Part shown: one piece after another, positions 42,434 through 61,863 of the stretch | Layout: every line of letters begins with the position of its first letter | How positions within the stretch are numbered: position 1 is the first letter of the stretch | Assembly: GCF_000024125.1 (NCBI RefSeq) | Contig: NC_013222.1 | Coordinates: forward strand, 3,241,501 to 3,305,500 | Source of the DNA: Robiginitalea biformata HTCC2501 | GTDB lineage: Bacteria; Bacteroidota; Bacteroidia; Flavobacteriales; Flavobacteriaceae | Direction: 5' to 3' | DNA length: 64,000 bases | Position numbers and translations under genes: made by a program | The notes under the pieces: model-generated | Database searches by the model: none | What the model was told of the DNA's origin: nothing | What the model saw: only the letters and a program-made list of their open reading frames with translations

Positions 42434-42506
42434 CACGGGAGGAGAGACTCGAACTCCCGACACCTGGTTTTGGAGACCAGTGCTCTACCAACTGAGCTAC
42501 ACCCGT
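42434..42506 (-). tRNA. tRNA-Trp (CCA)
   Basis: A 73-base cloverleaf: acceptor ACGGGTG pairs with CTCCCGT with one U-U mismatch. The anticodon loop is CTCCAAA with anticodon CCA, the T loop is TTCGAGT, and the discriminator is G. The CCA end is not encoded. It lies between tuf and secE. Confidence 0.95.
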
Positions 42507-42583
42507 ATTTACAGTGAAAGGGATCCGTCCCGATTCGTTATCAGGACGGGACCCCTCACTGCCTTTCCTAAGCCTTTTGGGGC

Positions 42584-43771
42584 TTAATCCAGAATCTTGG
42601 TTACCTGGCCGGCACCGACAGTACGACCTCCTTCGCGGATGGCGAAGCGCAGCCCCACGTTCAGGGCGATCGGCTGGATCAGGTCTACAGTGATGGTCAG
42701 GTTATCCCCCGGCATCACCATTTCAACGCCGTCAGGCAGGTTGATGGTTCCGGTAACGTCCGTTGTCCGTACGTAGAACTGAGGACGGTAGTTGTTGTGG
42801 AACGGCGTGTGACGTCCACCTTCTTCTTTTTTCAGGATATAGACTTCCGCTTCGAACTTGGCGTGCGGAGTAACAGATCCCGGCTTGCAGATTACCATTC
42901 CGCGCTTGATATCTTTTTTCTCGATACCGCGCAGCAGGATACCTACGTTGTCACCGGCTTCCCCGCGGTCGAGGATCTTGCGGAACATCTCAACACCTGT
43001 AATGGTAGAGGACAGTTTTTCAGCGCCCATACCGATGATGTCAACCGCGTCTCCTGTACTGGCAACACCAGTCTCGATACGGCCTGTAGCAACAGTTCCA
43101 CGTCCGGTAATGGTGAATACGTCTTCAACGGGCATCAGGAAATCCTTGTCCACATCGCGCTGGGGCAGCTCGATCCACTCGTCTACAGCCTTCATCAGCT
43201 CCATTACGGTGTCCACCCACTTTTGCTCGCCATTCAGGGCGCCCAGGGCAGAACCGGAAATAACCGGGCTGTTGTCGCCGTCGTACTCGTAGAAGGAAAG
43301 CAGCTCGCGCACTTCCATTTCAACGAGCTCCAGCAGCTCCTCGTCGTCCACCATGTCTACCTTGTTCAGGAAGACAACGATGCGCGGGATACCAACCTGG
43401 CGGCCGAGCAGGATGTGCTCGCGGGTCTGGGGCATCGGACCGTCTGTAGCAGCAACTACCAGGATAGCGCCGTCCATCTGGGCAGCACCCGTAACCATGT
43501 TCTTTACGTAATCCGCGTGACCCGGACAGTCAACGTGGGCGTAGTGACGGTTTTCGGTCTGGTATTCTACGTGAGAAGTGTTGATGGTAATACCACGTTC
43601 TTTTTCCTCGGGAGCGTTATCGATGGAGTCGAAGCTCCGAATGTCAGAGAGGCCAGCGTTTGCCAGTACGGTAGTAATGGCGGCTGTCAGCGTAGTTTTA
43701 CCGTGGTCGACGTGTCCAATCGTACCGATATTCAAGTGCGGTTTGGAACGGTCAAATGTTTCCTTAGCCAT
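42584..43771 (-). CDS. tuf: translation elongation factor Tu
   Basis: EF-Tu delivers aminoacyl-tRNA to the ribosome. The 395-residue chain has the G-domain motifs GHVDHGKTT (residues 19-27), DCPGHADY and NKVDMVDD, followed by beta-barrel domains 2 and 3 ending [10 protein letters not shown]. It lies in a tRNA/secE/nusG context that is conserved across bacteria. A short hairpin (AAGCC/GGCTT) follows the stop. Confidence 0.98.
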
Positions 43772-43927
43772 TGTTAGTGATTTTAATCTTAGTTTATATT
43801 AGTGTAACTGTTCTAAACGCGTCCGGCCCGCCATCCCCAAACTCCCTGCCGGTAAACGGCAATTGGAAATCGGTTCGATCAGGGCTCCGAAAGCGGGTGA
43901 TCCGGCCACCGGGGCCATATTTCTTTG

Positions 43928-43999
43928 AGCCAACGACGGGAATTGAACCCGTGACCTCTTCCTTACCAAGGAAACGCTCTACCCCTGAGCTACGTCGGC
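43928..43999 (-). tRNA. tRNA-Thr (GGT)
   Basis: A 72-base cloverleaf: acceptor GCCGACG pairs with CGTTGGC (one G-U). The anticodon loop is TTGGTAA with anticodon GGT, and the T arm is ACGGG/CCCGT. The CCA end is not encoded. It lies 156 bases upstream of tuf. Confidence 0.93.
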
Positions 44000-44089
44000 T
44001 GGTTGGCGCAAGGTTCAGGGGGCGACATCACCGAAAACCTTTCGGAAATCGATCGGCCCAAGCACCGCAAACGCTTGCCCAAGGTCTTG

Positions 44090-44162
44090 AGCGGGAGACC
44101 GGGTTCGAACCGGCGACATTCAGCTTGGAAGGCTGACGCTCTACCAACTGAGCTACTCCCGC
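44090..44162 (-). tRNA. tRNA-Gly (TCC)
   Basis: A 73-base cloverleaf: acceptor GCGGGAG pairs with CTCCCGC, anticodon stem TCAGC/GCTGA, loop CTTCCAA with anticodon TCC, and T loop TTCGAAC. Confidence 0.95.
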
Positions 44163-44451
44163 AATAATTTAATCTCAATATGTCAATTCGCGAGGATTAC
44201 CTCGCTGCGCTCGGTTCCGGTTAAACCTAAAACCATTTTTAGTAGCGTTTCGGTTGTCTCCGGATTACCGCCACCGGTTTCCCGGTGTCGGTGATCCTGG
44301 TTCGGGGAACCGGTCCGAACGTTTGCAGAACGTCCGGTGGACGTTTTGCAGTGAGGAGCCAGCTGGTGCGCTGGCCTCATCCTCTTATATAAGAACTCAA
44401 TGAACGCTAATCAAAAGCGAGCTCTTGACACCCACTTTAAGAATTTCTTTG
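44163..44451. other. 289-bp spacer inside the tRNA cluster
   Basis: No coding gene or tRNA is seen. It is longer than the other tRNA spacers and carries imperfect direct repeats (ACGTTTGCAG at 44319-44328, ACGTTTTGCAG at 44341-44351) and several short GC inverted repeats. It could hold processing sites or a decayed gene. Confidence 0.4.
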
Positions 44452-44534
44452 TGGGGAGAGCAGGATTCGAACCTGCGAAGGTGAAAACCAACAGATTTAC
44501 AGTCTGTCCTCGTTGGCCGCTTGAGTATCTCCCC
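44452..44534 (-). tRNA. tRNA-Tyr (GTA)
   Basis: An 83-base class II tRNA: acceptor GGGGAGA pairs with TCTCCCC, anticodon stem ACAGA/TCTGT with anticodon GTA, a long variable arm, T loop TTCGAAT and discriminator A. Confidence 0.95.
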
Positions 44535-44560
44535 GAACCCTAGAAATTTAAGAACTTACG

Positions 44561-44634
44561 AGCCGATGGAGGGACTCGAACCCACGACCCCGAGATTACA
44601 AATCACGTGCTCTAGCCAGCTGAGCTACATCGGC
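44561..44634 (-). tRNA. tRNA-Thr (TGT)
   Basis: A 74-base cloverleaf: acceptor GCCGATG pairs with CATCGGC, and the anticodon loop TTTGTAA gives anticodon TGT. The anticodon stem CGTGA/TCTCG has one T-T mismatch. It is the first gene after the candidate promoter at 44685-44714. Confidence 0.92.
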
Positions 44635-54562: not shown

Positions 54563-55153
54563 ATGAAAAAGAACCTTTTTGCCCTGACCCTGGCTGTGGT
54601 TACCACTACAGCTACATTAGCCACAGAACCCGCAGCCGACGAGACCAAAACCGTCGATGCAAAGGCGAGCACCGTTACCTGGAAAGCCTACAAGGTAACC
54701 GGTTCCCACACCGGGACCGTTGCCCTGAAGTCCGGTTCCCTCATTTTTGACGGGGACAAGCTTACCGGAGGCGAATTCCAGGTAGACATGACCACGCTGA
54801 CTGCAACGGACCTCGAGGGGGAATACCGGGATAAGCTCGTCGGGCACCTGAAGTCCGATGATTTCTTCTCAACGGAGAAATACAACACCTCAAAACTGGT
54901 TTTCACCCAGGTAAAATCTACCGGGAAAAACTCCTATGAGGTAACCGGGAACCTCACCATCAAGGGCATCACCAACCCCGTGACCTTTGACCTGTCCGTC
55001 TACGGAAGCAAGGCTACTGCCAATGTAAAGGTAGACCGGGCGGCGTATGATATCCGCTACGGATCCGGCAGTTTCTTCGACAACCTGGGCGACAAGACCA
55101 TTTACGACGAGTTCGACCTGGTCGTCGACCTGGAATTCGCAACAGCGAGCTAA
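54563..55153 (+). CDS. YceI family periplasmic lipid-binding protein
   Basis: The 196-residue protein has a signal peptide (about 1-20), then a lipocalin-like YceI barrel with VTWKAYKVTGSHTGTVALKS, GEFQVDMTTL, LKSDDFFST and FDLVVDLEFA. YceI proteins bind isoprenoid quinone-like lipids. It follows the nitroreductase by 47 bases, and a strong terminator closes the operon. The link to quinone stress is inference from the three genes together. Confidence 0.9.
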   Translation: MKKNLFALTLAVVTTTATLATEPAADETKTVDAKASTVTWKAYKVTGSHTGTVALKSGSLIFDGDKLTGGEFQVDMTTLTATDLEGEYRDKLVGHLKSDDFFSTEKYNTSKLVFTQVKSTGKNSYEVTGNLTIKGITNPVTFDLSVYGSKATANVKVDRAAYDIRYGSGSFFDNLGDKTIYDEFDLVVDLEFATAS

Positions 55154-55194: not shown

Positions 55195-55225
55195 AAACGC
55201 CGGGGTCCGCTCCGGCGTTTTTTTT
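55195..55225 (+). terminator. intrinsic terminator of marR-nitroreductase-yceI
   Basis: AAACGCCGG pairs with CCGGCGTTT around an 8-base loop, followed by eight T. It lies 41 bases after the yceI stop. Confidence 0.92.
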
Positions 55226-55234
55226 GAAACGGGG

Positions 55235-55265
55235 TTTGACAATACCGAATTCCTTTCTATATTTG
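55235..55265 (+). promoter_or_regulatory. promoter of the trp operon
   Basis: TTTG (55235-55238), a 19-base spacer, and TATATTTG (55258-55265) match the Bacteroidota -33 and -7 elements exactly. The predicted start point is about 3 bases before the leader peptide ATG. Confidence 0.75.
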
Positions 55266-55271
55266 ACTCCG

Positions 55272-55328
55272 ATGAAAACATTGATTACAACAAACTGGTG
55301 GTGGGTATCTGATCGCGGAACGTCGTGA
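55272..55328 (+). CDS. trpL: trp operon leader peptide
   Basis: An 18-codon ORF, MKTLITTNWWWVSDRGTS, has three consecutive Trp codons at 55296-55304. It lies between the trp promoter and a terminator hairpin ahead of trpE, the arrangement of ribosome-mediated attenuation. When Trp-tRNA is scarce the ribosome should stall on the Trp codons and favour an antiterminator. The ORF begins only about 3 bases after the predicted RNA start, so it would be read almost without a leader; there is no Shine-Dalgarno sequence. Confidence 0.8.
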   Translation: MKTLITTNWWWVSDRGTS

Positions 55329-55360
55329 CCTGAGCCCCCCTGTGTTTGTCCACCATACCT

Positions 55361-55390
55361 AAGGCTTGTCTGTCACGACAGGCCTTTTTT
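55361..55390 (+). terminator. trp attenuator terminator
   Basis: AAGGCTTGTC (55361-55370) pairs with GACAGGCCTT (55377-55386), one G-U, around TGTCAC, with T through 55390. It is 22 bases before trpE. AGCC (55333-55336) and GAC (55327-55329) could pair with GGCT/GTC of the 5' arm as an antiterminator. Confidence 0.8.
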
Positions 55391-55412
55391 AATTTTTGTC
55401 AACAAGCTCAAT

Positions 55413-56810
55413 ATGGCATACGAACTCCATACACACCACAAGAAAATCCTCGCGGACACCCTGACGCCGGTGAGCGTCTACCTGAAGGTACGCGACCGGT
55501 TCCCGGGCAGCCTCCTGCTGGAGAGCAGCGACTACCACGCCAACGACAATTCGTTTTCCTATATCTGCTGCAACCCGATTGCCTCCATCCGGGTACAGCA
55601 CGAGACGATCTTCCTGGAATACCCGGACGGGAAACGCGAACAGCGCCCCGTGGGCCCGGATACGGATATCCCGATGGAAATACATGCATTTGCGGCCCGC
55701 TTCCGGGCGGAGTCTTCAAATTTCAAGTTCATCAACAACGGGTTGTTCGGCTACATGGCCTATGACGCCGTCCGCTATTTTGAGGATATTTCCATTGGCA
55801 GGAAACCGGATTCCCCGGATATCCCCGATATCTACTACGCGGTTTACCGCAACATCATCGCCTTTGACCACTTCAAAAACGAAGCCTACCTGTTTGCCCA
55901 TTCCCACGACGGGAAAAACAATATACCCGAATTGGAACAGCTACTGGCCGTACAGACCTTTGCTTCGTACTCCTTCCGCAAGGAAGGCGAACGGCAAACA
56001 AACCTGGAGGATGCCGAATACCTGGAGCAGGTGGAACTCGCCCGCAAGCACTGCGGCCGGGGAGACGTATTCCAGCTGGTCCTCTCCCGGCGTTTCGCCC
56101 AGGGTTTCAAGGGGGATGAATTCAACGTGTACCGGGCCCTGAGGTCCATCAATCCCTCCCCCTACCTGTTCTACTTTGACTACGGGAGTTTCAAGATATT
56201 CGGCAGTTCCCCGGAAGCCCAACTGGTCGTAGGGGATGGCAAGGCGGAAATCCACCCGATCGCCGGGACGTTCAAACGCACCGGGAACGACGAGGAAGAT
56301 GCCCAATTGGCCCGGGAGCTCGCGGCCGACGACAAGGAGAACAGCGAACACGTCATGCTCGTGGACCTCGCCAGGAACGACCTGAGCCGCAACGGGAATA
56401 CCGTGCAGGTGGAAACCTACCGGGAAGTCCAGTATTTCTCCCATGTCATCCACCTGGTTTCCAAGGTTACCGGGCGCAAGAAACCGGAAATCCCGACGAT
56501 GAAGGTGGTTGCCGACACCTTCCCGGCGGGGACGCTCAGCGGCGCGCCCAAGCACCGGGCGATGCAGTTGATTGAACAGTACGAAAAAACAAGCCGGACC
56601 TACTACGGGGGGGCCATCGGATTCATGGCCTTTGACGGCGATTTTAACCACGCCATCATGATCCGGACCTTCCTGAGCCGGAACCACACGCTGTATTTCC
56701 AGGCCGGGGCCGGGCTGGTCGCGGCCTCGGACCCGGAGGCGGAACTCCAGGAGACCTACAACAAACTCGGGGCCCTGAACCAGGCACTCGAAATCGCCGA
56801 AAACCTCTGA
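55413..56810 (+). CDS. trpE: anthranilate synthase component I
   Basis: It converts chorismate to anthranilate using ammonia from TrpG. The 465-residue chain has the Trp-feedback motif LLESSDYHANDNSFS (about residues 35-49), and the chorismate-site motifs GTFKRTG, LVDLARNDLSR, FPAGTLSGAPKHRAM and AGAGLVAASDPEAE. The feedback site suggests end-product inhibition in addition to attenuation. trpG follows after 1 base. Confidence 0.96.
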   Translation: MAYELHTHHKKILADTLTPVSVYLKVRDRFPGSLLLESSDYHANDNSFSYICCNPIASIRVQHETIFLEYPDGKREQRPVGPDTDIPMEIHAFAARFRAESSNFKFINNGLFGYMAYDAVRYFEDISIGRKPDSPDIPDIYYAVYRNIIAFDHFKNEAYLFAHSHDGKNNIPELEQLLAVQTFASYSFRKEGERQTNLEDAEYLEQVELARKHCGRGDVFQLVLSRRFAQGFKGDEFNVYRALRSINPSPYLFYFDYGSFKIFGSSPEAQLVVGDGKAEIHPIAGTFKRTGNDEEDAQLARELAADDKENSEHVMLVDLARNDLSRNGNTVQVETYREVQYFSHVIHLVSKVTGRKKPEIPTMKVVADTFPAGTLSGAPKHRAMQLIEQYEKTSRTYYGGAIGFMAFDGDFNHAIMIRTFLSRNHTLYFQAGAGLVAASDPEAELQETYNKLGALNQALEIAENL

Positions 56811-56811
56811 T

Positions 56812-57381
56812 ATGAAAAAGGTACTGGTAATCGATAATTACGACAGCTTCACTTACAACCTGGTCCACTATCTGGAAGACCTCGATTGCGAGGTACACGT
56901 GTGGCGGAACGACAAGTTCGACCTGGAGGATGCCGGGGCTTTTCACCATATTGTCCTGTCTCCCGGGCCGGGGATACCGGATGAGGCCGGGTTGCTCAAG
57001 CCGCTCATCGAGAAATATGCCCCCACCCGGCGTATTTTCGGGGTCTGCCTCGGACAACAGGCTATTGCGGAGGTCTTCGGCGGCAAGCTCATTAACCTGG
57101 ACCGGGTTTACCACGGGGTGGCCTCCCCTATCGATATTACGGTCCCGGACAGCTTGTATCGGGGCATGCCCGCCAGCATCGAGGTTGGCCGCTACCACTC
57201 CTGGGTGGTGGACCCGGACCTGCCCGATTCCCTGGAGGCAACCGCCTTTGACGGGAATGGACAACTCATGTCGCTCCGGCACAAAACCTATGACGTGCGC
57301 GCCGTGCAATACCACCCGGAATCCGTGTTGACGCCCAGGGGCAAAGATATCCTCTCCAACTGGTTAAATTCTGAAGCATGA
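56812..57381 (+). CDS. trpG: anthranilate synthase component II (glutamine amidotransferase)
   Basis: The 189-residue class I amidotransferase supplies ammonia to TrpE. The nucleophile Cys79 lies in GVCLGQQAIAE, and the His/Glu pair in VQYHPESVLTP. It is a separate subunit, not fused to trpD. Its end overlaps the trpD start by 4 bases (ATGA). Confidence 0.96.
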   Translation: MKKVLVIDNYDSFTYNLVHYLEDLDCEVHVWRNDKFDLEDAGAFHHIVLSPGPGIPDEAGLLKPLIEKYAPTRRIFGVCLGQQAIAEVFGGKLINLDRVYHGVASPIDITVPDSLYRGMPASIEVGRYHSWVVDPDLPDSLEATAFDGNGQLMSLRHKTYDVRAVQYHPESVLTPRGKDILSNWLNSEA

Positions 57382-58379
57382 AAGAGACACTGAACAAACT
57401 CATCGAACACCGGATGCTGGAGCGGGCCGAAGCCCGCCAGGTCCTTGTGGACATTGCCGGGGGGCAGTATAACACAAGCCAGATTGCAGCCTTCCTGACC
57501 GTGTTTATGATGCGGAGCATCCGCACGGAAGAACTCGAAGGTTTCCGGGACGCCCTCCTGGAACTCTGCCATAAGGTCGACCTGGGCGGACATGAGCCCA
57601 TCGACCTCTGCGGCACCGGGGGGGACGGCAAGAACACCTTCAACATCTCCACCCTGGCCTCCTTCGTAACGGCAGGTGCCGGGATTCCGGTGGCCAAACA
57701 CGGGAATTACGGGGTGTCCTCCCAATGCGGCAGCAGCAACGTCCTGGAATTTTTGGGCGTTCGCTTCAGCAACGAGCAGGACTTCTTAAGGCGTTGCCTG
57801 GACCGGGCGGGGATCTGTATTCTCCACGCCCCGCTTTTCCACCCGGCCATGAAAAACGTGGCACCCATCCGGAGGGAACTCGGGGTGAAGACCTTTTTCA
57901 ATATGCTGGGGCCCATGGTCAACCCGGCATTCCCGAAATACCAGATGGTTGGGGTGTTTAACCTGGAACTCGCCCGGATGTACGGCTACCTGTACCAGAA
58001 TACGGACAGGACGTTCAGCATCCTGCACGCCCTGGATGGGTATGACGAGATTTCCCTGACGGGCCCGGCCAAGGTAATCCGCAACGAAAGCGAGGAATTG
58101 CTCTACCCGGAAGACCTCGGGCTGCGGGCCCTGGAGGCGGAGTCCATTTACGGGGGGGAGAGCATCGAAGAGGCGGCAGGGATCTTCCTCCAGGTACTCC
58201 AGGGCCGTGGGAGCGAGGCACAACAATCCGTAGTCTGCGCCAACGCGGCAGTCGCGATTTCCACGGTGGAGGGCGGATCGATGACCGCCGCCTACGAGAA
58301 AGCCACAGAATCCCTCAAGAGCGGGAAAGCCCTTGAAGCCCTGAGGGAATTACAGGAACTAAGCCGGATTGCGCCATGA
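57378..58379 (+). CDS. trpD: anthranilate phosphoribosyltransferase
   Basis: The 333-residue enzyme joins anthranilate to PRPP. The PRPP loop DLCGTGGDGKNTFNIST and the anthranilate-binding KHGNYGVSSQCGSSNVLE are intact. It overlaps trpG and trpC by 4 bases each, suggesting coupled translation. Confidence 0.96.
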   Translation: MKETLNKLIEHRMLERAEARQVLVDIAGGQYNTSQIAAFLTVFMMRSIRTEELEGFRDALLELCHKVDLGGHEPIDLCGTGGDGKNTFNISTLASFVTAGAGIPVAKHGNYGVSSQCGSSNVLEFLGVRFSNEQDFLRRCLDRAGICILHAPLFHPAMKNVAPIRRELGVKTFFNMLGPMVNPAFPKYQMVGVFNLELARMYGYLYQNTDRTFSILHALDGYDEISLTGPAKVIRNESEELLYPEDLGLRALEAESIYGGESIEEAAGIFLQVLQGRGSEAQQSVVCANAAVAISTVEGGSMTAAYEKATESLKSGKALEALRELQELSRIAP

Positions 58380-59161
58380 ATATCCTGGACCGAATTGCAG
58401 CGACCAAGCGGGAGGAAATTGCCCTGAAACAACTGGTGGTGCCCGAAGCCCGGCTTCGGGATTCCGCCCTGATGCAGCGGGAACCGGCTTCCATGAAAGC
58501 CTCCCTCTCCGCCCGGAGTTACGGTATCATCGCCGAGCACAAGCGCAGGTCGCCCTCCCGTGCGGTAATCAACCAGGCGCTCACCGTCCAGCAGGTGGTC
58601 CGGGGCTATACGGCAGGAGGAGCCGGTGCGGTTTCCGTACTGACGGACGGGACCTATTTCGGCGGGTCCCTGGAAGACCTGTTGCTGGCCCGGGCCGTAA
58701 CGGACCTGCCCCTGCTTCGCAAGGAATTTATCCTGGAGCCCTACCAGGTACTCGAGGCGCGGGCCCACGGAGCAGATGCCATCCTGTTGATAGCCGCCCT
58801 GCTGGAACCCGGCCAAATCGAAGCCCTCGCCGGCCAGGCGCGGGAACTGGGCATGGAGGTCCTCCTCGAGGTACACGACCGGGAGGAACTGGACAAATCC
58901 CCCCTGGGCTCGGCCGATATGATCGGGGTCAACAACCGCAACCTGAAAACCTTTGAAGTAGACCTGGCCACCAGCCACAGCCTGGCGGGCCTCATCCCGG
59001 ACACGGCCCTGCGCATTACCGAAAGCGGCCTGGGGAAGCCCGGGGAGCTGCGGGAGCTGCGGGATTCCGGTTACCGGGGGTTTTTGATGGGGGAATCTTT
59101 CATGAAACAGGACGACCCGGGCAAGGCACTTAAAGCATTTCTCAAAACCCTGGAAGCATGA
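58376..59161 (+). CDS. trpC: indole-3-glycerol phosphate synthase
   Basis: The 261-residue TIM barrel forms indole-3-glycerol phosphate. Conserved elements are the catalytic lysines in EHKRRSPSR and LRKEFILEPYQ, then LEVHDREEL, GVNNRNLKTF and ITESGLG. It is not fused to trpF; the two overlap by 4 bases. Confidence 0.96.
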   Translation: MNILDRIAATKREEIALKQLVVPEARLRDSALMQREPASMKASLSARSYGIIAEHKRRSPSRAVINQALTVQQVVRGYTAGGAGAVSVLTDGTYFGGSLEDLLLARAVTDLPLLRKEFILEPYQVLEARAHGADAILLIAALLEPGQIEALAGQARELGMEVLLEVHDREELDKSPLGSADMIGVNNRNLKTFEVDLATSHSLAGLIPDTALRITESGLGKPGELRELRDSGYRGFLMGESFMKQDDPGKALKAFLKTLEA

Positions 59162-59820
59162 AACTCAAAGTCTGCGGCATGAAGGAGAATACCGGCGAAA
59201 TCGCCCGGCTGGAACCCGATTACCTGGGATTCATTTTCTGGAAGGGATCGTCCCGGTATTTCGACGGGGAACCTCCCGGTACGGCGGCTAAAAGCCCCAG
59301 GCGCGTGGGGGTGTTCGTCGATGCAGACCCGTCCGATATCCTGCAGCGTACCCGCGATTTTGACCTGACATACATCCAGTTGCACGGCTCGGAAACCGCC
59401 GGGTACTGCAGCAGGCTGAACGCATATCTGAAGGACGCATTGGCCCAACCTCCTGGTCTGATCAAGGCCTTTGCCGTGGGGGGCGATTTTGACTTCAAAC
59501 CCCTGGAGGCGTACCGCCCGAGCTGCGAATATTTCCTTTTCGACAGCCGCGGACCCCTGCCTGGCGGCAATGGCACAGTCTTTAACTGGGAGATCCTGCG
59601 GGGATACCCCTTTGATACCCCGTTCTTCCTGAGCGGCGGCATCGGACCGGATTCCCTGGAAGCGCTTGAGGCGTTCGCCGCATCTGCCGCCGGTGCGCAT
59701 TGCCATGCCATTGATGTAAATAGTAAATTTGAAATCGCCCCGGGAAAAAAAGATGCAGGGAAAATTAAGCGATTTATGGCGGCCAGCCCGTGGCTTTGGC
59801 AAGGCAGCGCCGGACAGTGA
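59158..59820 (+). CDS. trpF: phosphoribosylanthranilate isomerase
   Basis: The 220-residue TIM barrel carries out the Amadori rearrangement. KVCGMKE at the N-terminus holds the catalytic cysteine; YIQLHGSE and LFDSRGPLPGGNGTVFNW are typical, and FLSGGIGPDS is the phosphate loop. It is followed by a 50-base gap before trpB, the largest in the operon. Confidence 0.94.
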   Translation: MKLKVCGMKENTGEIARLEPDYLGFIFWKGSSRYFDGEPPGTAAKSPRRVGVFVDADPSDILQRTRDFDLTYIQLHGSETAGYCSRLNAYLKDALAQPPGLIKAFAVGGDFDFKPLEAYRPSCEYFLFDSRGPLPGGNGTVFNWEILRGYPFDTPFFLSGGIGPDSLEALEAFAASAAGAHCHAIDVNSKFEIAPGKKDAGKIKRFMAASPWLWQGSAGQ

Positions 59821-59870
59821 AAACAACGGCCAGTTGCCTTCTCGCAAATGGCAAATAAAATTGCAAGAAA

Positions 59871-61064
59871 TTGGAAACAAGTAAATACAAAGTAGATGCA
59901 CAAGGGTTTTACGGGGAGTTTGGCGGCGCCTTTATCCCCGAGATGCTCTACCCGAATGTGGAAGAATTACGGGAGAATTACCTGCCCATCATCGAATCGG
60001 AGGAATTTCAGTCCGAATTCCGGAAGCTGCTTCGGGACTACGTGGGAAGGCCTACCCCCCTCTACCTGGCCCGTCGTCTCTCCAGCACGTACAAAGCCCG
60101 GATCTACCTCAAGCGGGAAGACCTTTGCCACACCGGGGCCCATAAAGTAAACAACACCATCGGACAGATCCTGCTGGCAAAAAAACTGGGAAAAAAACGG
60201 ATCATTGCGGAAACCGGGGCCGGCCAGCACGGCGTGGCGACGGCTACCGTCTGCGCCCTGATGGGGCTGCCCTGCGTGGTCTATATGGGCGAAGTGGATA
60301 TTGCCCGGCAGGCGCCCAACGTAGCCCGGATGAAACTGCTGGGGGCCGAGGTACGGCCGGCTCGATCGGGAAGCCGCACCCTCAAGGACGCCACCAATGA
60401 AGCCATTCGGGATTGGATCAACAACCCTGTGGATACGCATTACATCATCGGGTCCGTAGTGGGGCCGCACCCCTACCCGGATATGGTAACCCGCCTGCAG
60501 GCAGTCATCTCGGAGGAAATACAATCTCAATTGCAGGAGGCCGAGGGACGCCCGGACCCGGATTACCTGATTGCCTGCGTAGGCGGCGGCAGCAATGCGG
60601 CTGGCACCTATTACCATTACCTGGACAGGGAGCACGTCCGGATCATCGCAGCAGAAGCAGCCGGGAAGGGGGTGGAAACGGGCGAAAGCGCCGCTACATC
60701 CGCCCTGGGCCGGCCTGGCATCATCCACGCGAGCAAGACTTTGCTAATGCAGACGGACGACGGCCAGATTACCGAACCCTATTCCATCTCGGCAGGCCTG
60801 GATTACCCGGGTGTGGGCCCCCTCCATGCCCACCTCTTCCAAACCGGACGGGCCCGCTTTATCCCCGTCACCGACGACCAGGCCATGGAAGCCGGTCGTG
60901 AACTCGCCCGGCTGGAAGGCATCATCCCGGCAATCGAAACCTCCCATGCCCTGGCAGTCCTCTCCCAGGGCGCTGTCCCGGAAGGATCCCTGGTAGTGAT
61001 CAACCTCTCCGGAAGGGGTGACAAAGACCTGCAAACATATATCGACCATTTTAAGCTCGCCTAA
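59871..61064 (+). CDS. trpB: tryptophan synthase beta chain
   Basis: The 397-residue PLP enzyme makes Trp from indole and serine. The PLP lysine is Lys92 in [13 protein letters not shown], and GGGSNAAG binds the PLP phosphate. The best start is a TTG at 59871 ([20 protein letters not shown]): the nearest upstream ATG (59848) is in another frame, and the first internal ATG lies past the conserved N-terminus. trpA starts 10 bases after the stop. Confidence 0.95.
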
Positions 61065-61074
61065 TACCCCCTAC

Positions 61075-61863
61075 ATGAAAACCGCATTACCACACGTATC
61101 CGACAGGCTGAAAAGCACCCTGGAAAAACCGGGGAAACTCGTCTCCATCTATTTTACGGCCGGATACCCCGAGCTCGGGGATACCGTCCCGATCCTGCGG
61201 GAATTGCAGGCAGCCGGGGCCGATATCGTCGAAATCGGGCTGCCATTCAGCGACCCGCTGGCGGATGGGCCCACCATACAGGAAAGCTCCACGGCAGCTT
61301 TAAAAAACGGCATGCACACGGCCCGCCTGTTTGAACAGCTGCGGGGTATCCGGGAAGAAATCCACATCCCGTTGATCCTGATGGGATATTTCAACCCGGT
61401 GCTGCAATTCGGGGTGGAGGCGTTTTGCCAAAAATGCCAGGAGGTGGGTATCGACGGGTTGATTTTGCCGGATCTGCCCCTGGAGATCTACCAACGGGAT
61501 TACCAGCCTTACTTTGAAGCCGCCGGTTTGAGCATGGTGTTTCTGATCAGCCCGCAGACCTCTGAAAAACGGATCCGTCAAATCGACGCGGCTTCCGGCA
61601 GTTTCATCTATATGGTGAGCTCGGCGAGCACCACCGGGGTCCAGGACAGTTTCGGCTCGGGGCAACAAGCCTATTTTAACCGGATTGCCGGCATGAACCT
61701 CAGCTGCCCGCAATTGGTGGGCTTCGGTATCAGCGACGCCGGGAGTTTCCGGGCTGCCACGCAAAAGGCAAAAGGCGCGATCATCGGATCGGCATTTATC
61801 CGGCTCCTCACCGAGAAGGGGATTCCGGGTATCCGCGATTTTGTGAAAGGGTTGAGGGGGTAA
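61075..61863 (+). CDS. trpA: tryptophan synthase alpha chain
   Basis: The 262-residue TIM barrel cleaves indole-3-glycerol phosphate and passes indole to TrpB. Catalytic Glu53 (VEIGLPFSD) and Asp64 (PLADGPTIQ) are present; the phosphate loop GFGISDAGS is intact. The ATG at 61075 is preferred to an upstream in-frame one that overlaps trpB. No clear terminator follows. Confidence 0.95.
   Translation: MKTALPHVSDRLKSTLEKPGKLVSIYFTAGYPELGDTVPILRELQAAGADIVEIGLPFSDPLADGPTIQESSTAALKNGMHTARLFEQLRGIREEIHIPLILMGYFNPVLQFGVEAFCQKCQEVGIDGLILPDLPLEIYQRDYQPYFEAAGLSMVFLISPQTSEKRIRQIDAASGSFIYMVSSASTTGVQDSFGSGQQAYFNRIAGMNLSCPQLVGFGISDAGSFRAATQKAKGAIIGSAFIRLLTEKGIPGIRDFVKGLRG

Follow-up and report, generated by a model that had tools for sequence, protein, structure and literature searches.

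A predicted ribosome-mediated attenuator of the trp operon in Robiginitalea biformata and a possible lysine variant of its chassis

The DNA immediately upstream of the trpEGDCFBA operon of Robiginitalea biformata HTCC2501 most likely encodes a ribosome-mediated transcription attenuator of that operon, a reading to which we assign a probability of about 0.93. The element occupies positions 55235–55412 of the window, the 64,000-nucleotide stretch that was analyzed (NC_013222.1, positions 3,241,501 to 3,305,500), taken from a 3.53 Mb genome on one contig. Ahead of the trp genes it carries a short ORF with a run of Trp codons, an intrinsic terminator before the first gene, and RNA strands that can pair in mutually exclusive ways; these parts and their conservation were read from the sequence and from comparison with relatives.

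The genes downstream of the attenuator were named by matches to NCBIfam and lie on the forward strand in the order trpE-trpG-trpD-trpC-trpF-trpB-trpA. The best match for trpE (55413–56810), anthranilate synthase component I, is TIGR00564 at 439 bits, below the cut-off of 517.7; the closest named TrpE relatives are from Robiginitalea species, with 85 and 81% identity. The block from trpG to trpA (56812–61863) consists of trpG (56812–57381), trpD (57378–58379), trpC (58376–59161), trpF (59158–59820), trpB (59871–61064), and trpA (61018–61863), all with mechanically set ORF limits. TrpG, TrpD, TrpC, TrpB, and TrpA each score above the threshold of a named family, and TrpF, like TrpE, is named by its best match below a cut-off (117 bits vs 216). 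The ORF preceding the attenuator (54563–55153) matches the YceI family at 61.9 bits, below its cut-off, and this upstream gene has its own terminator-like hairpin at 55195–55220, so the second hairpin, at 55361–55386, lies inside the trp transcript. Elsewhere in the window, Rfam identifies five tRNA genes on the minus strand at 42434–44634.

The leader ORF (55272–55328, forward strand) begins with an ATG at 55272, ends with a TGA at 55326–55328, and encodes the 18-residue peptide MKTLITTNWWWVSDRGTS, in which three tandem Trp codons (TGGTGGTGG, 55296–55304) form the putative sensor. In minimum-energy folds, element 1 (TCGCGG, 55313–55318) pairs with the stop-codon strand TCGTGA (55323–55328) to give stem 1:2; in the equivalent stem of relatives, CTTACG directly follows the Trp codons and its partner CGTGAG lies at the stop codon. 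The stem of the window is in a different register. Strand 2 (55322–55336) comprises GTCGTGAC (55322–55329), which holds the stop codon, and GAGCC (55332–55336). Its alternative partner, strand 3 (55361–55379), spans the 5′ arm of the terminator, the loop, and the first bases of the 3′ arm. The antiterminator (2:3) consists of GTCGTGAC paired with GTCACGAC (55372–55379), from the terminator loop and arm, and of GAGCC paired with GGCTT (55363–55367). Its conserved core, TCGTGA:TCACGA, joins the stop codon to the loop and 3′ arm. The terminator with its U tract (55361–55391) has a stem of 10 pairs (55361–55386) and a loop of 6, followed by T residues; U tracts are weak in some relatives. Folding of 55272–55391 gave z = -2.53, with 4 of 200 shuffled sequences as stable. 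A preliminary description of this DNA had listed a promoter, an 18-codon ORF with WWW, a 10-bp terminator with a T-tail, and trpE, all of which were confirmed to the base. The pairing of AGCC and GAC with the terminator arm that it proposed is present as well, but only as part of the longer GTCGTGAC:GTCACGAC and GAGCC:GGCTT pairing.

These parts suggest the following model. Transcription would begin on the leader AUG or no more than about 3 nt from it, and the ribosome would thus probably load on a leaderless or nearly leaderless message. When charged tRNA-Trp is scarce, the ribosome would stall on the three UGG codons and block stem 1:2. The stop-codon strand (55322–55336), left free, would then base-pair with the terminator's 5′ arm and loop, and RNA polymerase would continue into trpE. 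With plentiful Trp, the ribosome would reach the UGA within strand 2 and cover that strand, the terminator (55361–55386) would form, and transcription would end near 55390. If the leader were not translated, stem 1:2 and the terminator would be the expected default.

Relatives were collected as the best 80 of 588 TrpE loci from one scan of species genomes. TGGTGGTGG is present upstream of trpE in all 80, within 400 bp in 75 and at 466–554 bp in 5. As the sequences were excised for alignment by their TGGTGGTGG, the invariance of those columns is by construction, which does not affect the count of 80/80. The terminator stem (3:4) is paired in 790 of 790 alignment cells across 79 distinct sequences. 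According to the preliminary description, absence of the Trp codons or of the hairpin from relatives would speak against it, and the comparison turned up no such case; ribosome-mediated trp attenuation, which it had proposed, is also the best reading here. At five loci (L018, L020, L027, L040, and L051), a small ORF with adjacent palindromes lies between the attenuator terminator and trpE and would therefore fall under Trp control. The two of these ORFs that were scanned (L020 and L027) contain a GIY-YIG domain (Pfam), and the other three resemble them by eye, that of L040 being seemingly broken.

Nascent leader peptides of the TnaC type stall the ribosome in response to free Trp. That the WWW peptide senses free tryptophan in this manner, rather than uncharged tRNA, would accommodate the retention of WWW in every relative but is highly improbable: the residues flanking WWW vary and the C-terminal frame differs among clades while the RNA motif stays constant, and a biosynthetic operon requires control by scarcity, the opposite of TnaC. 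Three leaders (L070, L077, and L078) end in another frame and retain TCGTGA as RNA, which argues that this motif is not kept for its peptide.

The pairings themselves were examined in the alignment of relatives. For stem 1:2, 88.0% of 474 cells pair, and the covariation score of 0.146 (0.091 in shuffled alignments) was reached by none of 500 shuffles; changes on both sides occur in 17 cells, all at one pair. Slid registers of this stem gave up to 19 such cells and covariation up to 0.140, with pairing of at most 56.1%. For stem 2:3 within the family of the window (f1), 82.8% of cells are paired, compared to 82.4% after column shuffling, a small gain because both strands are nearly invariant; slid registers pair at most 42.7%. 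The covariation score of 2:3 within f1 was reached by 110 of 500 shuffles, and its both-side changes, confined to 1 pair, were matched by 464 of 500. At the variable end of the helix, 16 of 81 sequences pair (4 C-G, 9 A-U, 2 G-U, and 1 U-A) and 65 do not.

Stronger support for the antiterminator than this within-family pairing comes from changes on both strands in another family of the order (f2). Where f1 has UCGUGA:UCACGA, f2 has GGUUC:GAACC, GAUUC:GAAUC, and the intermediate GGUUC:GAAUC (L226, L239, and L240). Strands were also swapped between families, with 300 random pairs of strand 2 and strand 3 per combination. Matched strands gave -12.6 kcal/mol (f1 with f1) and -10.8 kcal/mol (trp leaders of f2 with one another), compared to -7.7 kcal/mol for f1 strand 2 with f2 strand 3 and -9.5 kcal/mol for f2 strand 2 with f1 strand 3, the latter a small gap from the matched f2 value. 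This retention of the alternative pairings, which change together between families, argues against a leaky constitutive terminator whose ORF is a byproduct or yields a trans-acting small peptide or sRNA. Such trans-acting products have a precedent in peTrpL and rnTrpL of Sinorhizobium meliloti (PMC7298713), and termination would yield an RNA of about 120 nt here also; however, the peptide outside WWW varies, with no conservation across families, and we regard this explanation as very unlikely. A trans role could exist in addition to cis attenuation.

The dependence of the antiterminator on ribosome position, a further hallmark of a trp attenuator, was examined by folding for the window and 79 relatives (n = 80). 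A stalled ribosome was represented by a 20-nt mask starting at the first Trp codon, with the third UGG in the A site and an assumed footprint, and the pre-terminator transcript was taken up to the start of the 3′ arm of the terminator. The antiterminator was the minimum-energy fold of this transcript in 79 of 80 masked sequences, vs 13 of 80 unmasked. A 17-nt mask likewise gave 79 of 80, and with strand 2 shuffled the antiterminator appeared in 7 of 1600 masked folds. The terminator formed in 80/80 sequences when the ribosome was placed at the stop codon, and likewise in 80/80 when they were naked. It still prevailed in 75 of 80 full-length stalled folds; the switch must therefore be kinetic, with the decision taken during RNA synthesis. 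In the window itself, the naked pre-terminator transcript already prefers the antiterminator as its minimum-energy fold, which makes the no-translation state less clear here than in most relatives. All trp leaders of f2 (n = 18) formed the antiterminator when masked, compared with 10 of them when naked.

Stem 1:2, in which the stop strand is bound to bases that follow the Trp codons, is present in the naked full-length folds of 80/80 sequences. In 76/80, the window among them, 4 or more of the 9 Trp-codon bases are paired with sequence lying between the stop strand and the terminator, a count made without a shuffle control. The preliminary description had paired TGGTGG with CCACCA. The latter does lie at 55350–55355, within the region of this common pairing, but the window is the one sequence of the 80 to have these letters after the Trp codons, and CCACCA itself was rejected as a conserved partner of the Trp codons.

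A sigma-A promoter of the Bacteroidota type precedes the leader (55235–55265, forward strand), with a -33 TTTG at 55235–55238 and the -7 box TATATTTG at 55258–55265; a consensus-style reading as TTGACA (55236–55241) and TATATT (55258–55263) agrees at 11 of 12 positions. A promoter scan alone performs at about chance (2 found vs 1.3 expected), and the support for this promoter is the box and its spacing, which are kept in relatives. In Flavobacterium psychrophilum, the TAnnTTTG box is placed at -12 to -5 (PMC9723704). From this spacing, transcription is predicted to start at about 55270, leaving a 5′ UTR of 2 nt. The earlier remark that no Shine-Dalgarno sequence precedes the ORF was right, and the predicted start of the message lies just a few bases from the AUG. 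By the same box-spacing rule, the predicted 5′ UTR is 0–4 nt in 65 of 81 leaders (the window and 80 relatives), including two whose box ends in A (L055 and L061), and 10–26 nt in 15, mostly in Flavobacterium and allied genera. In the one other leader (L075), no in-frame ATG follows the box; a GTG lies 5 nt after it instead.

To obtain a baseline for this spacing, mechanically called ORFs of at least 120 codons were taken from 40 stretches of 20 kb (400 kb per genome) in the genome of the window (294 ORFs) and in one relative (G134; 288 ORFs), and a box was sought up to 70 nt from the first ATG. A box was present for 43 of the 294 and 59 of the 288 ORFs, respectively. Its distance to the ATG was 4–8 nt in 5/43 and 13/59 cases, 9–13 nt in 2/43 and 0/59, and beyond 13 nt in 36/43 and 45/59, with 1/59 nearer than 4 nt. 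Reversed boxes totaled 8 and 12, of which 1 and 1 were at 4–8 nt; a baseline from the window only (a box in 3 of 37 ORFs, 2 of them at 4–8 nt) is too small a sample. The spacing from TAnnTTTG to ATG is therefore bimodal (L253–L292), with 4–8 nt followed by 14 nt and more, and suggests a discrete minority class of near-leaderless genes to which the trp leader would belong. Leaderless messages make up 5.5% in F. psychrophilum (PMC9723704), and 5′ UTRs shorter than 10 nt about 3.7% in Bacteroides thetaiotaomicron (PMC7366714). The near-leaderless trp leader is possibly a new aspect.

The distribution of the element was then assessed with a covariance model (R1) that spans the Trp codons to the terminator. 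It comprises 80 sequences, the window among them; of the full 81, L021 was left out as identical to L014 over the stretch. At E <= 0.01, R1 found a match in 184 of the 199 genomes sampled from the window's family. In a phylum-wide sample, 51 of 296 genomes were matched, 29 of them from the window's family, and one member of that family is among the misses listed. Matches outside f1 and f2 exist at E values of 1e-4 to 1e-2. In a class-wide sample, TrpE was found at E <= 1e-60 in 30 of 90 genomes, at 31 places. Upstream DNA was read at 26 of these places, all outside the window's family; the set excludes two places within the family, two that start at a contig end (G514 and G533), and G488. An ATG-initiated ORF with clustered Trp codons was seen within about 300 bp in 20 of the 26, by eye and without a shuffle control, and 13 of these 20 carry WWW. 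One further leader (L199) has a GTG start, and no Trp leader was seen in the 5 other stretches read (L184, L187, L188, L202, and L204), that of L188 having about 150 bp of upstream DNA.

A second model (R2), consisting of the chassis without the Trp codons, matched 31 of 148 genomes of f2 at E <= 0.001. The 30 f2 loci that were fetched comprise 18 WWW leaders before trpE, 11 Lys leaders, and one locus (L241) that the script left unassigned. The Lys leaders (L145, L147, and L214–L222; 11 genomes from three genera) follow the pattern MI[LS]SNLKK[AGS]KKQ[NY]LR..[SP] and precede an ORF starting MKVLKFGGTSVGSP. One of these ORFs (L145) was scanned and scores above the cut-off of the aspartate kinase family TIGR00657; its best match is lysine-sensitive aspartokinase 3, below that cut-off. 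Lys leaders and f1 trp leaders share the chassis TTRCG...CGTGAG...GAGCTTGTCATCACGACARGCTC, and the last two Lys codons stand where the trp leaders have their last two Trp codons. In the same genomes, trpE has a WWW leader with a different stop strand and terminator (11 of 11, by eye). Lys codons on the trp chassis before an aspartokinase gene, with trpE under another leader, make the switch look portable. We therefore lean towards a portable trp attenuator whose specificity is set by the codons at one fixed place and which would be driven from a leaderless start in Robiginitalea, Maribacter, and Muricauda. The antiterminator formed in 11 of 11 naked as well as 11 of 11 masked folds of the Lys leaders, which counts against the same switch mechanism there or is silent on it. 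The Lys-for-Trp chassis before aspartokinase is possibly also a new aspect; nothing on such a swap was found in the titles and abstract openings from a literature search, which is no proof of absence.

The other candidates for the chassis that were read were rejected. In the window's genome, TCACGACARGCC occurs exactly only once, with 10 one-mismatch places, and a second R2 match (L179, E 0.099) reads as an ordinary terminator. Of the weak R2 matches in 26 genomes, 27 were read, as were L159 and L155, from a list with more than 100 further entries; those read all look by eye like ordinary terminators and follow unrelated genes. Two other leaders were observed in this genome, both on the minus strand of its contig: a Phe leader (MNTTYFWNGFFFYFFFKGSTGPL) with a terminator before a prephenate dehydratase gene (L213, near 3474205), and, ahead of hisG (L208, near 2590138), a His leader (MKKNTTHHHIGSCAQAR) accompanied by a terminator-like hairpin. 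The His leader was recognized only on reading the DNA; the simple scan that missed it found no such leader at two ilvD-type and two homoserine-dehydrogenase loci.

Taken together, the analysis provides a model of amino-acid attenuation in Bacteroidota that is worked out and open to testing. Should both the leaderless start and the exchange of Trp for Lys codons hold, a few codon changes would have redirected one RNA switch to another amino acid. This would be a naturally occurring case of modular design and would give access to leaderless translation in a setting that does not use Shine-Dalgarno pairing.

In Escherichia coli, trpL combines Trp codons, three mutually exclusive stems, and a terminator before trpE. 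The element described here follows the same logic; it differs from trpL in having its stop codon inside the antiterminator strand and a message predicted to be nearly leaderless, and the Rfam Trp_leader family is not among the 13 Rfam matches of the window region at E up to 10. Bacteroidetes/Chlorobi attenuators were reportedly listed by Vitreschak et al. in 2004. The closest known family is Bacteroid-trp (RF01692), which likewise lies before trp genes, has a Trp leader ORF and stem 1:2, and ends in AAGGCUUGUC; its model stops at the 5′ arm of the terminator, and the terminator and antiterminator are not drawn there. RF01692 is absent from the default Rfam scan of the window, yet it is the top match in a sensitive scan, at 29.4 bits (E 0.13), below the gathering score of 49. 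That score is passed by 11 of 14 f1 relatives tested (L004, L005, and L008 miss it) and by none of 6 loci from other families. In the alignment, the window's leader occupies the homologous position and shares its chassis with members above the cut-off, R1 including the window by construction. Weinberg et al. (2010, PMC2864571) gave the motif as a probable cis-regulator in Bacteroidetes. Later reports liken it to E. coli attenuation and place it upstream of the F. psychrophilum trp operon (PMC6414381) or describe strong indications that leader peptides attenuate operons for amino-acid biosynthesis (PMC9723704). The preliminary description had called leader-peptide attenuation of trp established in proteobacteria; it is not new to Bacteroidota either, as RF01692 and PMC6414381 came earlier, so the kind is known and the window holds a divergent relative below the Rfam cut-off. 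Attenuation of trpE(G) by S. meliloti trpL, whose transcript begins at the trpL AUG in the account of PMC7298713, is a further parallel, from another phylum and with a different peptide and RNA; the start is known there and predicted here.
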